From assembly GCA_902517885.1 (NCBI GenBank), contig CABYDZ010000003.1, positions 62,001 to 126,000 of the forward strand: a DNA stretch of 64,000 nucleotides, read 5' to 3'. This document shows, piece by piece, positions 42,966 through 49,912 of the stretch. The stretch's first letter is position 1; each line of letters starts with the position of its first letter. The notes below the pieces were generated by a model. It saw nothing but the letters and a program-made list of their open reading frames with translations, was not told where the DNA came from and did no database searches. Made by a program: the position numbers and the translations under genes. The stretch comes from an uncultured Pelagibacteraceae bacterium (GTDB lineage Bacteria; Pseudomonadota; Alphaproteobacteria; Pelagibacterales; AG-422-B15).

Positions 42966-43895
42966 ATGAACAGTGTATTGGCAATAGCAGTTAATAATTT
43001 AAGCAAGGTTTACAAATCAAGTTCTGACACTGATAAACTTGCATTAGATAATATTTCATTGGCAATAAAGAAAGGTTCAATATTCGGCTTACTTGGACCT
43101 AATGGAGCTGGGAAGTCTACATTCATTAATATATTAGCAGACTTGGCAAAAAAAACTTCTGGTGAAATTGAAGTCCTGAATATCAATCACGAAAGTAATT
43201 TAATAGAAGCCAAGAGGCTTATGGGCATTGTACCTCAAGAATTAAACATTGATCCTTTTTTTACTCCATACGAACTTTTAGAAATCCAGGCTGGCTTATA
43301 CGGTATTAAAAAGAAAGACAGGAAAACAATGGAAATTTTAAAAATGCTTGCATTAGAAGATAAGGCCAAAGCATATGCTAGAACTTTGTCTGGAGGAATG
43401 AGAAGGCGTCTTCTTATTGCTAAAGCAATGGTCCATGATCCAGAAATATTAATACTAGACGAACCAACAGCAGGTGTTGATGTAGAACTTAGAAGTAACT
43501 TATGGGAGAATATTCATAAACTAAATCAAAGTGGGAAAACTATAATCATTACTACTCATTATTTGCATGAAGCAGAGGAGCTATGCAATGAAATAGCAAT
43601 CATTAATGAAGGTAAGTTGATAGCTCATGATACTACAGTCAACATAAAATCTTTTTTAGATAAAGTAACGGTGATTGTTGATTATAATGATAATAGTTTT
43701 GATTTATCAGGACTTAATGAATTAAATTTAGAGATAAAAATAAAAAACAGACAAGTTCAAGTAAACTATAAACCCAGTGAAGTTGATTTTAATTTAATGC
43801 TTAATGCACTTAATTCTTCAGGATCTCAAATAATAAACATGAAGATAATAGAAACTAAATTAGAGGATGTTTTTCTTCAGCTTACTCAGAAGTAA
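42966..43895 (+). CDS. ABC transporter ATP-binding protein (ABC-2/YadG-like)
   Basis: LLGPNGAGKSTFINIL, LSGGMRRRLLIAKAMVHDPEILILDEPTAGVD, TTHYLHEAEELC. Confidence 0.93.
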   Translation: MNSVLAIAVNNLSKVYKSSSDTDKLALDNISLAIKKGSIFGLLGPNGAGKSTFINILADLAKKTSGEIEVLNINHESNLIEAKRLMGIVPQELNIDPFFTPYELLEIQAGLYGIKKKDRKTMEILKMLALEDKAKAYARTLSGGMRRRLLIAKAMVHDPEILILDEPTAGVDVELRSNLWENIHKLNQSGKTIIITTHYLHEAEELCNEIAIINEGKLIAHDTTVNIKSFLDKVTVIVDYNDNSFDLSGLNELNLEIKIKNRQVQVNYKPSEVDFNLMLNALNSSGSQIINMKIIETKLEDVFLQLTQK

Positions 43896-46569
43896 TTTTT
43901 CTAGGAAAAAGCTTATCTAGTACAACTGCAAGTGCAGGAAGTGTTGTCATTGCACAAACCATGTTGATTAAGAACATAAATGTCAATAATGATCCCATAT
44001 CAGCCTGGAATTTTAATGCAGAAAATGACCATGTAGAAACGCCAATTGCAAGAGTAATTGCTGTAAAAACAACTGCAGCACCAGTGTTGGCAAAAGTATG
44101 TTCGAAAGCTTCAGTTATATTCATACCCTCTTTTAAGCGTGTCTGAGTTCTATTATAGATGTAAAATGCATAGTCAACACCTACGCCAACCGCTAATACC
44201 ATAACTGGAAGCGTAGATACTTTTAATCCTATTTGCGCTAGGTCCATAAATGCATAGCCTAGCATAGTTGCAAATGTGAGTGGAACTGTACAACATATCG
44301 TTGCTCGCCAATCAAGATAGGTTACAAAAACTAGAATTAAAATAACTATGTAAACAATTATCATCATTGGCAGTTCACCTTTTTCAATGACTTCATTGGT
44401 TGCATATTGAATCCCTACTGATCCACTTGCCAGTCTATTTTTAATCTCATCAGATTCAAAAATAATACTTTCGAACTCTGGATTATTATTGAAAAATTCC
44501 TTAAAACTTATTTCTGATTGCTTAATATCCCCTACCATATAATTTACATTGTCATCGAATGAATCAATATCTCTATAATAATTAATAAGACCAGGGCCAA
44601 GCATTATATTTCTTGTATTGAAGCCGTTCTCATAACCAAAATCAGTGAACTCATCGTCAGTAAATATTTTTGGGTTATCAATATTTAATAAATCCTCAAT
44701 ATTGGTTTCTTCACCTCCCAAATTATCAACTGCAGGTATTACATCAGTCCCTTCTGCAGGCTTCGCAACTAAAGTTTTGAACGTTATTGTATCGTCTAAT
44801 TCACGGAACTTTTCATTGTATTCCTCGATACTTTGAATAACTGTATTTAAAGTAGTTGCTTTATGATCTTCTGTGAAAACATAAATGGGCATTATTGAGC
44901 ATTGTTCATTTATCAACCCAGTAGATGGATCTACAACACTTGTAGCAAAACCTAGTGCTTGTTCATTGCGAGGTAGATAAGACCATTTTAGATTGCCTTC
45001 AGCATAACCACTCAAAGCTCTTTTAGCCACACTTGAGAGAGATATTACTTTTGAAACTCCTGGAATATTTTCTAAGTACCAATGAAGATTATTTTGTGCG
45101 TCCATAACATATGTAGACCTGCAGGGATTAACTCCTCCTGTGAAGGCTGCTTCGGTAATTACCACTAAAACATCTGTTGTAACATTGTATCTTTTGGTTA
45201 TTTCGTTTATGTCTTGATTAAATCTTGCTTCTGGTCTCAACTCTGGAGCCCCAGCGTGTAAGTCTCCGACATGCCTCTCACTTGCTAAATATGCAGCACC
45301 TATAAATAATACTGCACTAACAGAAAGTGTGATAACAGCCTCTCTTGGCCTTGCTAATTTTCCAAAAAACCCCATAAGATTTTGCCTATAAGAAATTGCA
45401 GACTGTGCTCTGGCAGCAAAACTTTCATTGTATCGCGCATAAGATGCTGCAAGCGGTAACATAATTAGATTGGTTACAATTTTAAAAGCAACCCCAATAG
45501 AAGCAGTGATGCCAAGCTCCTGAATCATTCCTATTGGTAACAATATTAGTGTGCCAAACCCTACCAAGTCTGTAACTAACGCCATTGACCCTGGTACAAG
45601 CAATCTTGAAAAAGAAGCCCTAGCTGCATATTCAGCAGTTTCTCCTTCAATAACTTCCTTTGTTATTTGATTTACCTGTTGAATTCCATGAGAAACACCA
45701 ATAGCGAAAACTAAAAAAGGAACGAGAATTGCAAGAGGGTCTAATCCAAAACCAAGAATTTTTAGCATCCCAAATTGCCAAATAAGCGATGTTAATGAGC
45801 AAATTAATGGGAGAAATGTTAATGTCCAAGATCTTGAGTACCAATAAACTGCTAAAACGGTCAGAAAGAAAGCTAGTCCAAAAAAGATTACAACATTATA
45901 AGCTTCGTTTGCAATATCAGAAATCATTTTAGCAAAGCCAGTAATCTCAACCCTGTATTCGCCTATTTCATACTGCTCTCTAATGGTCTCAATTTCTTGG
46001 CCAAGTTTAAGATAATCTAATTTTTCACCAGTCTTGGGATTATATTCTGTTAATTCAACTTTAATTAGAGAGGATGTAAAATCATTTGCAACAATGCTTC
46101 CTACATGGCCACCGGTTAAAATTCTTTCTTTTATATTTTCAATTATTTCAGGGGTAAGGTTTTCAGGTATAACAGTTCCAGGTATTACCTCTGAACTTTC
46201 AAAGCCCTCTTCTGTGACCCTCATTACTCTAATATTAGGAGTCCATAAAGATTGCATCGATCCCTGATTTACTCCAGGAAGATATCTAATAGTATTATTT
46301 AATCTAAAAAGGTTGGATAAATATTCTTTTGTAAATATATCTCCCTCAGTAGTTCTAAGAGCTACCGTAATGCTGTTTGTTCCACTAAGATCATCTTGAT
46401 ATTCATAGTAAGTTTTTACAAATGAGTGGCTATTGGGTAGCTGTTTAGCAAAACCAGCATCCATTCTTATTTGAACTGCGAAGTAAGCCATTACAATTGT
46501 AATGAGGACGAATGCCGCAAGAACAGGAAGTCGAAATTTAAAAAACCAATTTTCTATTTTTTGTAACAT
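43882..46569 (-). CDS. MMPL/RND family transporter (HpnN-like)
   Basis: 895 aa, two large loops plus 12 TM; VGVGVDYAFYIYNRTQTRLKEGMN and FAIGVSHGIQQVNQITKE SSD-type motifs. Confidence 0.85.
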   Translation of the reverse strand: MLQKIENWFFKFRLPVLAAFVLITIVMAYFAVQIRMDAGFAKQLPNSHSFVKTYYEYQDDLSGTNSITVALRTTEGDIFTKEYLSNLFRLNNTIRYLPGVNQGSMQSLWTPNIRVMRVTEEGFESSEVIPGTVIPENLTPEIIENIKERILTGGHVGSIVANDFTSSLIKVELTEYNPKTGEKLDYLKLGQEIETIREQYEIGEYRVEITGFAKMISDIANEAYNVVIFFGLAFFLTVLAVYWYSRSWTLTFLPLICSLTSLIWQFGMLKILGFGLDPLAILVPFLVFAIGVSHGIQQVNQITKEVIEGETAEYAARASFSRLLVPGSMALVTDLVGFGTLILLPIGMIQELGITASIGVAFKIVTNLIMLPLAASYARYNESFAARAQSAISYRQNLMGFFGKLARPREAVITLSVSAVLFIGAAYLASERHVGDLHAGAPELRPEARFNQDINEITKRYNVTTDVLVVITEAAFTGGVNPCRSTYVMDAQNNLHWYLENIPGVSKVISLSSVAKRALSGYAEGNLKWSYLPRNEQALGFATSVVDPSTGLINEQCSIMPIYVFTEDHKATTLNTVIQSIEEYNEKFRELDDTITFKTLVAKPAEGTDVIPAVDNLGGEETNIEDLLNIDNPKIFTDDEFTDFGYENGFNTRNIMLGPGLINYYRDIDSFDDNVNYMVGDIKQSEISFKEFFNNNPEFESIIFESDEIKNRLASGSVGIQYATNEVIEKGELPMMIIVYIVILILVFVTYLDWRATICCTVPLTFATMLGYAFMDLAQIGLKVSTLPVMVLAVGVGVDYAFYIYNRTQTRLKEGMNITEAFEHTFANTGAAVVFTAITLAIGVSTWSFSALKFQADMGSLLTFMFLINMVCAMTTLPALAVVLDKLFPRKITSE

Positions 46570-46734
46570 TATAAGTATTTATAATAGTGGCTCAAAATAT
46601 GGAAAAAAACGTAATTTGTACAACTAAATCTTTCAGAATCGAATATAAATATCAGCTATATATAGCGCACTGAAATTATGACATAATTTTTAAATAATTA
46701 TAAGCTACTGAAATGCAACATTTATTTTTTAATA

Positions 46735-46756
46735 TTTATGAACATATGCTCATAAA
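46735..46756. promoter_or_regulatory. 22-bp near-perfect palindrome upstream of diiron protein gene
   Basis: TTTATGAACATATGCTCATAAA (one mismatched position per arm), followed by an extra half-site CTATGAACATG; 39 bp upstream of the ATG at 46795. Confidence 0.5.
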
Positions 46757-46794
46757 TTTCTATGAACATGTTTTAAATTGTGTATAATTAATAT

Positions 46795-47991
46795 ATGGCT
46801 GAACTTCAACATAAATTAGATTTTGCAAAAATATATGCAAAAGATCAGATCTTTAAACTGAAAAGATTGTGGCAAATGTCGCGTAACGGAAAAAATGCGA
46901 TGAATAAAGATCCTGCATATAATGCTACCAATCCCAGTCATTTTATACCAATGATAGAAAAAGGTAGGTACATTGAGAGAGTTGATAGCTTTGATCAGAT
47001 GATTTCAGCCACTCATAAGCACTTTTGGGACCCTAATGATAAATCATATATTGATTTTGACGAACCATTCGATATGGAAAATGAATATATTGTCGACCCT
47101 GATGTCTTTTGCATGGAACTTAGAGTTCCAGCGATCGCTAATAGCTTAACTGAAAAACAAAAAATAAAATTAAATAATGAAAGCTTCAGATGGGTGCTTT
47201 CTCAAATTCTGCATGGTGAGCAAGGTGCTTTATCTTTAAGCGCAAGCCTTTGTCATGTATTAAAAGATCCAGGTGCACAAGAATACGCAGCTAACCAAAC
47301 TCGTGAAGAGGCTAGACATGTTACAGGGTTCACTAATTATATAAAAGCAAGATGGGGATCTCCATATCCAGTAGGCCCAACTCTAGGACGAATTTTAGAA
47401 CAAATTGTATCTTCAGATGTTGTTTACAAAAAAATTGTAGGCATGCAGATGATGATTGAAGGTCTCGCAATGGGAGCCTTCGGAATGGCTCACCAAGACA
47501 CTAATGATCCGCTCCTAAAAACTCTCTTGAAATTTACAATGAGTGATGAAGCATTTCATCATAAGTTTGGCAAAATTTGGGCAGACAGAACTGTGCCAAA
47601 GCTGTCTGAATCAGAGAGATACAAAGTGGAGGATTGGTCAGCTATGATTTTCAAAGATTTACTCTATAATCTTGTTAATCCTTGGGAAAAGAAGGCAATC
47701 TATCAAAGTGTTGGCTTAGATCATAAATTTGTTACTAAACATTTTATGCAAGAAATTGATAGAGACTCCGTAATACGCGAAGAAATGATGGAGAGTAACA
47801 ATATATTCAGAGTGCTGTGTAAAACGTTACTTAAAGCGAACATCATAACTGAAAGAACGAGAAAAACTTACGCTGAATTTGTTAACATGGAAGAGCTTAA
47901 CGCTGAAGATGATGAAGTTGCAGGAATTGACATAGCAAACGAAGGATTAGCTCAGCTTGAACAAATCAATAAAGGCCGTAAAGTAGCTTAA
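46795..47991 (+). CDS. Ferritin-like diiron-domain protein of unknown function
   Basis: Four-helix diiron ligand pattern HGEQ ... REEARH ... MMIEGLA ... SDEAFHH. Confidence 0.75.
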   Translation: MAELQHKLDFAKIYAKDQIFKLKRLWQMSRNGKNAMNKDPAYNATNPSHFIPMIEKGRYIERVDSFDQMISATHKHFWDPNDKSYIDFDEPFDMENEYIVDPDVFCMELRVPAIANSLTEKQKIKLNNESFRWVLSQILHGEQGALSLSASLCHVLKDPGAQEYAANQTREEARHVTGFTNYIKARWGSPYPVGPTLGRILEQIVSSDVVYKKIVGMQMMIEGLAMGAFGMAHQDTNDPLLKTLLKFTMSDEAFHHKFGKIWADRTVPKLSESERYKVEDWSAMIFKDLLYNLVNPWEKKAIYQSVGLDHKFVTKHFMQEIDRDSVIREEMMESNNIFRVLCKTLLKANIITERTRKTYAEFVNMEELNAEDDEVAGIDIANEGLAQLEQINKGRKVA

Positions 47992-48003: not shown

Positions 48004-48555
48004 TTATCTTGGTGATTTTTTCTGAAGTATTCTTTGGAGTGTTCTTCGATGCATTTTCAATCTTCTAGCTGTCTCAGAAACATTTCGATTGCACAACTCA
48101 TAAACTCTAAGAATATGTTCCCATTTTACTCTATCAGCTGACATAGGATTTTTTGGAGGTTCTGGACTAGATGAATAAGGTGCTTTTAAAGCTGCATCAA
48201 TATCGTCTGCATCAGCAGGTTTAGCCAAATAGTCACATGCTCCTTCCTTCACAGCTGCAACAGCAGTTGGAATGTTTCCATATCCAGTAAGCATAACAAT
48301 TTTACTATCAGATCTTTGCTTTGAAAGTAGAGATACTATCTCTAAGCCATTTCCATCATCCAGCCTTAGATCAACTACGGCATATTTTGGAAATTTCTCA
48401 GATAGTGATGACTTGGCCTCTTTAACCGAAGCAACACCATATGCTTCGTACCCTTTTCTCTTCATGGCGGTGATAAGTCTATTTCTGAATACATCATCAT
48501 CATCGAGTATCAATAACGACTTATCCAAATTCAAACTACCTTCTATATTATTCAT
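48004..48555 (-). CDS. regA: Response regulator RegA/ActR/PrrA-like (Fis-type HTH)
   Basis: LLILDDDDVFRNRLITAMKRKGYEA, AVVDLRLDDGNGLE, C-terminal NVSETARRLKMHRRTLQRILQKKSPR. Confidence 0.93.
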   Translation of the reverse strand: MNNIEGSLNLDKSLLILDDDDVFRNRLITAMKRKGYEAYGVASVKEAKSSLSEKFPKYAVVDLRLDDGNGLEIVSLLSKQRSDSKIVMLTGYGNIPTAVAAVKEGACDYLAKPADADDIDAALKAPYSSSPEPPKNPMSADRVKWEHILRVYELCNRNVSETARRLKMHRRTLQRILQKKSPR

Positions 48556-49894
48556 TTTGAAGTCCTAAAGCACTTTTAATTAAAATTACCTGAACACATC
48601 CACCTTTATTTTTTCTATAAAGGAACTTAATCTCACCAAGTGACTTTGCAAGTAAGTTCTTTGAAATAAATAAGCCCAAACCAAGACCTTCCTTGTTTTT
48701 ATCCCTATTATTGCGTAAATATGGTTCACCAAGAAATGGGTAAATTTCTGATGCAAAACCTGGACCATCATCGACGATTTCTATTATGATTTTTTCCTGC
48801 TCATTTTTTAGAGTGATTTCTACAGAATTTATGGCATACTTAAATGCATTATCTATGATATTAGTTAGTGAGTGTACTAATTCAGCAGATCTGGGTATAA
48901 CAACTTTATCTCTCTCAAAATAGTCATCAAAAAATATATCAAATTTTATTTTATCATTATCATATGGTGAAACAATTTCATTTATTAAGCGGACAAAATT
49001 TAATTGATTGATAAATTCATTACTTTTATCAGATAAATTATTTGATCTCAGTCGTTCTAATATTTCTTTACACCGCTCTAGTTGAGACTGGATAACCAAC
49101 AAATCCTCACCTAAGACTCCATCTTTGTTATTGTTAACTAATTCCTTATTGATGATTGAAATTGTTGATAGTGGTGTTCCAAGTTCATGAACAGCTGCTG
49201 CTGTTAAACTCATTAAAGCAGAGACTTGTTCTTCATTGGATAACGATAATTGAGATTGTCTTAGAGCCTGTCTTGTTTTTCTTGAGTCATCTGCAACTCT
49301 AAAACAGTAGGCTGTTATAAAGATTGAAGTAATTACTAAGGCTGACCAGATTAAAAATATTTCAAATCCTGAAAAATCATCTTTACCTATCCCAAGGGTT
49401 ATGCTTTCAAGAGGAAAGTAATAATAAGCTAAAAAATTGAGGGAGATGATTGCAACCACTGTTATCAGAACCGTTCTTCTAAAATCTAAATATGTAGCTG
49501 CAATTACAAGTGGTGCTAATATCAAGACACAGAAAGGGTTTGTTAGTCCTCCAGTTAAATACAATAGTGAGACTAATTGGATTAGATCAAAAACCAAATA
49601 AAAGAAGGTTTCATTATAGTTTAGAATTTTTGTCAGAGGATATAAAACGCTTACAGCTATATTAAGAGTTACGCTAAGTAAGATTAATAAAATACAGATA
49701 TAAATATTAAAAACTATCTGGAAATAAAAAAAAGCAATAACGACAGCTGAGAATTGGCCAAGCACTGCTATCCAACGAATAAGATTGAGTGTTCTTAATC
49801 GTAAGTTAATGTCTTCATTTTGTGATAGCTCAATAGAATTATTCAAAGTAAATTTAAAAGTTAAAATATTTATATAATAATTTATAGTTGCATT

Positions 49895-49912
<18 letters not shown>
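48548..49912 (-). CDS. regB: Redox-type sensor histidine kinase RegB/ActS/PrrB-like (true start probably an internal TTG/near LNNSIEL)
   Basis: GGLTNPF heptapeptide, H-box AAAVHELGTPLSTISII, LERCKEILERL, GLGLGLFISKNLL. Confidence 0.92.

Follow-up and report, generated by a model that had tools for sequence, protein, structure and literature searches.

Most diiron hydroxylases bind their metals through 2 His and 4 carboxylates, while a 3-His/4-carboxylate mode is largely unique to N-oxygenases; CylC halogenases carry the motifs QExxH and HxxDExxH (PMC12101540). Cyanobacterial ADO (PF11266), which itself acts on a long-chain substrate, combines the 2-His/4-carboxylate set with a ferritin-like fold. 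The same set is found in BioE, which shows cADO-like chemistry and has a promoter palindrome bound by the repressor BioL (PMC12915131). On the transport side, Castellaniella has the HAE3 efflux cassette AmeABCD, which acts on apolar monoterpenes and whose AmeABC portion consists of DUF1302, DUF1329 and YCF48 proteins (PMC6394551).

Here, we relate these systems to a SAR11 locus within a window (the whole analysed DNA stretch of 64,000 nucleotides) from an assembly of 1.28 Mb that is 85% complete. Based on its reading frame, ligands and fold, the central gene (46795..47991, + strand) is annotated as a ferritin-like diiron oxygenase of 398 aa. The motifs HGEQ, EEARH, MIEG and DEAFHH are all found in the protein, and the complete diiron ligand set claimed by an earlier sequence-only reading holds across relatives. 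That is, E142, E172, H175, E222, E252 and H255 (2-His/4-carboxylate) are invariant in 30/30 aligned homologues with 54-87% identity, as are the second-sphere acids E171 and D251.

An AlphaFold model of the protein (pLDDT 79, pTM 0.82) predicts a ferritin-like fold. Among the Foldseek matches, whose scores are modest (TMq about 0.4), R2/NrdF proteins rank highest by E-value (about 1e-3) and ADO reaches the best target-normalised TM (0.66-0.70). ADO also ranked first in a PDB profile search (E 0.004), where its motifs EGEQ/EQRH/IIE/DEYLH match the four ligand motifs in register; a single-sequence search returned no solved homologue. The structure comparison proposed earlier thus points to ADO and R2 proteins as the closest solved relatives of the predicted model. 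According to model and alignment, the protein has the four-helix bundle and E/ExxH/E/ExxH ligands of the ferritin-like diiron superfamily. The proposal of an O2-activating oxygenase or oxidase of the ferritin-like kind is supported; its ligands are conserved, and so is the operator described below.

Known families do not supply a name for the protein. The NCBIfam search gave no match, and the family is without a functional name there. In Pfam, AurF (PF11583) and a sub-threshold HRI2_3H are the sole listings at E <= 1; the families of acyl-ACP desaturase, R2 and R2lox gave no match at this level, such that R2 and desaturases appear as fold matches only. The likeness to ADO has its limits as well: the 398-aa protein has N- and C-terminal helices and no Pfam Ald_deCOase (PF11266) match, whereas a distant paralogue does match this family, and no acyl-ACP reductase was seen among the immediate neighbours of the gene. 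We conclude that the protein is an unnamed variant among the diiron oxygenases of ferritin-like type, marked by an unusual cis-element that extends across the family.

This cis-element is located in the intergenic region of 225 bp (46570..46794) upstream of the gene. The sequence-only reading was correct about the length of this region but not in treating it as a lone leader, since it is a divergent promoter region common to the diiron gene and an RND gene. It contains the palindromic operator TTTATGAACATATGCTCATAAA (46735..46756), whose arms pair at 10/11 positions, with a core TGAACANNTGTTCA-type site at 46739-46752. Within the 64 kb, one match to TGAACANNTGTTCA with 1 mismatch is found where 0.31 are expected, so the motif alone is not rare. 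We consider the palindrome functional because of its conservation rather than its rarity in the window: 24/30 genus promoters keep TGAACA-NN-TGTTCA, located at -56 to -58 relative to the ATG and with its centre about 50 bp ahead of this codon. The genome scan for repeats that had been suggested identifies exact copies at most twice per genome, i.e., in the diiron promoter and, in the form TGAACAGCTGTTCA, in front of a gene for a class III aminotransferase. A LexA-type box was rejected, as one or two occurrences per genome do not amount to an SOS set. An Rfam search of the upstream region gave no match at E <= 0.1.

Other parts of the promoter are less uniform. The extra half-site TATGAACATG, also regarded as an element before, is present at 46761-46770 (+ strand), yet unconserved in relatives. 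A sub-lineage (L074-L076) shows TATATCA...TGATATA at the same promoter place, about 60 bp upstream, instead of the TGAACA palindrome, and in three further loci (L091-L093) the palindrome was not seen at the equivalent position. A likely -10 box TATAAT (46783..46788, + strand) was recognised by eye and not listed by a consensus scanner; most host-genus promoters have TATAAT at a similarly short distance from the ATG. Since the box ends 6 nt before the ATG and no Shine-Dalgarno sequence was seen at 46783-46794, the diiron mRNA may have a very short leader or none, i.e., it is possibly leaderless.

Judged by its sequence, the palindrome is a 14-bp dyad of the kind that TetR-family regulators bind. 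The host genome encodes two TetR genes, both candidate regulators. One is a BetI-type TetR gene (1010-1669 of the window, + strand; NCBIfam BetI below cut-off), which diverges from an oxidase/aminotransferase/Rieske/ABC cluster and holds TTGAATGATTATTCAA in its own promoter region. The TGAACAGCTGTTCA copy lies outside the window (G000:C3:58536-58549) and keeps a near-constant distance to the aminotransferase across the genus. The BetI-type TetR may also bind the palindrome of the diiron gene.

Outside SAR11, the corresponding intergenic region contains TGACG-N4-CGTCA, often twice. When up to one mismatch is tolerated and the 250 bp in front of the gene are considered in all paralogue clades, this motif precedes the family gene in 41/47 loci (26 exact), compared to 0.9 loci expected from a background of the same DNA. 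Both motifs have a 14-bp TGA...TCA dyad in common, from which we infer that they represent one element after an operator change.

The respective regulon was investigated by pattern searches, genome-wide in one genome of Parvibaculaceae type (G066). Here, 13 exact TGACG-N4-CGTCA sites are found vs. 3 in the control. The operator precedes 4/4 diiron paralogues (two exact, two with one mismatch) and a TetR gene, which diverges from the most distant diiron paralogue and has a fatty-acid desaturase gene behind it. The operator is likewise found in front of alkane hydroxylases (CYP153-type P450s), a GMC alcohol dehydrogenase and a ferredoxin-NAD reductase; in the CYP153 cluster, the gene for the [2Fe-2S] ferredoxin is preceded by an operator with one mismatch. 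Sites at rpoC, DUF2157 and GCS2 as well as inside genes are possibly due to chance. The TetR gene (TetR_C_33; L241:2084-2698, with L244:9607-10503 belonging to the same observation) diverges from a 33%-identical paralogue, for which Pfam gives matches to AurF as well as Ald_deCOase. The TetR protein is a candidate for control of the entire TGACG-N4-CGTCA regulon. A gene for wax ester synthase/DGAT (L243:8644-10191) diverges from the ferredoxin-CYP153 cluster, and an operator with one mismatch lies between the two.

The divergent partner in SAR11 encodes an HAE3/MMPL-type RND transporter of 895 aa (43882..46569, - strand; Pfam MMPL, NCBIfam HAE3 sub-threshold). This partner and the family-wide operator had been overlooked by the sequence-only reading. 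On the other side, two convergent genes follow whose products exceed the NCBIfam cut-offs for the identities given to them earlier, i.e., the response regulator RegA/ActR/PrrA (48004..48555, - strand) and the sensor kinase RegB/ActS/PrrB (48548..49912, - strand). The order RND - diiron gene - RegA - RegB is kept in every informative locus of the host genus. Ten non-SAR11 loci, including Parvibaculum and Tepidicaulis, show it too, although interrupted by MmcB/HldE or other genes; for some of them, RegA or RegB is beyond the examined stretch or unmatched. In the sister SAR11 family, the RND/diiron pair is missing as one unit while RegA/RegB are kept; there, RegA is the direct neighbour of the gene for an ABC-ATPase or DNA polymerase I which, in the host genome, borders the outer side of the RND gene. 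Since the pair comes or goes as a unit, we regard the RND transporter and not RegBA as the functional partner. One sister-family genome has a BioY-like (biotin uptake) membrane protein between DNA polymerase I and RegA (L216:939-1505).

Paralogues elsewhere show further contexts. Some clades are located behind DUF1302, DUF1329 and YCF48 genes, i.e., after AmeABC-like genes, and others near acyl-CoA dehydrogenases, acyl-CoA synthetase/ligase and enoyl-CoA hydratase. The SAR11 locus shares the HAE3 RND with AmeABCD but unites RND and diiron gene only, with no AmeABC genes in the examined neighbourhood of the window.

The diiron gene is present in 29/36 host-genus genomes, and the sister SAR11 family has it in 0/23. 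The seven genus genomes without it are accounted for by joint absence or gaps in the assembly, as five also lack the orthologous RND gene and two have it at a contig edge. Among the sampled Alphaproteobacteria, 65/387 genomes encode at least one homologue, often three or four (four at most), including Parvibaculum, Tepidicaulis, Rhodobiaceae and Sneathiella. In the tree, the SAR11 genes group with a single MAG copy of 62% identity, which has no RegBA beside it. A clade of SAR11 and RegBA-linked copies is not rejected by the AU test (p-AU 0.10 and 0.30), which makes it plausible that the SAR11 gene is orthologous to the RegBA-linked Parvibaculaceae copy.

The explanation we favour, with somewhat better than even confidence, is a diiron oxygenase for aliphatic chains that is controlled via a TetR operator and coupled to RND export of lipids or hydrophobes. 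Its observed basis comprises the ligand conservation, the fold, the operator conservation, the RND pairing, and the co-occurrence of the operator with CYP153, ferredoxin and ferredoxin reductase in one relative. The enzyme would be a 2-His/4-carboxylate oxygenase of hydroxylase, desaturase or deformylase type from an unnamed alphaproteobacterial family. Because the operator marks alkane-oxidising genes in one relative, the enzyme probably oxidises fatty or hydrocarbon chains, i.e., a long aliphatic substrate such as a fatty acyl, fatty aldehyde or hydrocarbon is suggested through guilt by association in relatives. The diferrous enzyme and O2 would attack an aliphatic C-H or an aldehyde, with electrons presumably provided by a ferredoxin. 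The probable role of the HAE3 RND transporter is to carry the oxidised apolar product, or the lipid that bears it, out of the inner membrane. A TetR-type protein, putatively a repressor, would hold the promoter at the palindrome, which lies immediately in front of it, until an acyl or hydrocarbon effector arrives. Substrate, electron donor, export and repressor identity are inferred, as is their transfer to SAR11.

The main rival is a role in structural membrane lipids, to which we assign a clearly smaller, though still appreciable, probability. That is, the enzyme would hydroxylate or desaturate acyl chains or polar-lipid tails for envelope adaptation, together with RND transport, rather than serve hydrocarbon catabolism. 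The retention of a single copy with its transporter in a streamlined genome is consistent with this role, as are the fatty-acid desaturase following the TetR gene in the Parvibaculaceae-type genome and the fact that transporters of lipids (hopanoids) are found among the HAE3 RND proteins. On the other hand, CYP153 alkane hydroxylases are found within the operator regulon of that very genome, and hopanoids are an unlikely cargo because squalene-hopene cyclase is absent from all 36 host-genus genomes.

An N-oxygenase of AurF type or a halogenase of CylC type, making a specialised metabolite, is improbable. With the AurF/CmlI N-oxygenases and the CylC halogenases, the protein has in common its broad Pfam family and a dimetal fold of the ferritin-like kind. 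The Pfam AurF match that would suggest it is marginal (32.5 bits vs. a cut-off of 29.6), and this cut-off is passed in only 12/36 host-genus genomes. Moreover, the class-defining residues differ: position 248, which corresponds to the extra His of AurF's HxxDExxH, is V or T in 30/30 homologues, and the protein reads EExxH and V/TxxDExxH where CylC has QExxH and HxxDExxH. The third histidine to which the 3-His mode of N-oxygenases owes its name is thus missing throughout, and on these residues both classes were rejected.

Even less probable is a BioE-like cleavage of long acyl chains into a pimeloyl thioester for biotin. BioE resembles the SAR11 system in its six ligand types, its cADO-like chemistry and its palindromic operator, the latter being bound by BioL. 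Yet its gene context is different, bio genes were not noted among the identified neighbours of the diiron gene, and relatives carry up to four paralogues per genome. A biotin role was rejected because no BioB was found above cut-off in the host genome, as assembled to 85% completeness.

Equally doubtful is a RegBA-controlled oxygen or redox protein (oxidase or O2 scavenger), i.e., the functional tie to RegBA proposed by the sequence-only reading, for although RegBA adjoins the gene in SAR11 and in the ten non-SAR11 loci, the orientation is convergent, RegBA is retained without the diiron gene in the sister SAR11 family, the operator is present without RegBA at paralogues elsewhere, and it does not resemble the RegA consensus site. 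The adjacency of RegBA is ancient and positional, and no regulatory link was found.

The initial observation is confirmed and even stronger than stated. Ligands and palindrome turned out to be conserved and the family has no functional name, i.e., none of the outcomes named in advance as speaking against it was seen.

The family is widespread in Alphaproteobacteria, often multicopy, and without a functional name, and its cis-element ties it to alkane-oxidising P450s in one genome. Given this element shared with CYP153, a concrete substrate class and a regulator become testable in culturable Parvibaculum. No literature on the family in Parvibaculum, or naming AG-422-B15, was found. Within SAR11, the diiron gene sets one family apart from its sister and points to a possible step of lipid or hydrocarbon oxidation and export, a description of which was not found in the literature searched. 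More tentatively, the SAR11 module, i.e., a new class of diiron oxygenase acting on alkanes, fatty aldehydes or lipid chains with a dedicated RND exporter, might have been kept complete from a hydrocarbon-degrading alphaproteobacterial ancestor, with the operator elsewhere uniting diiron paralogues and CYP153. If true, this ancestral module would give abundant ocean bacteria a part in the short-term cycling of hydrocarbons or lipids in the sea.
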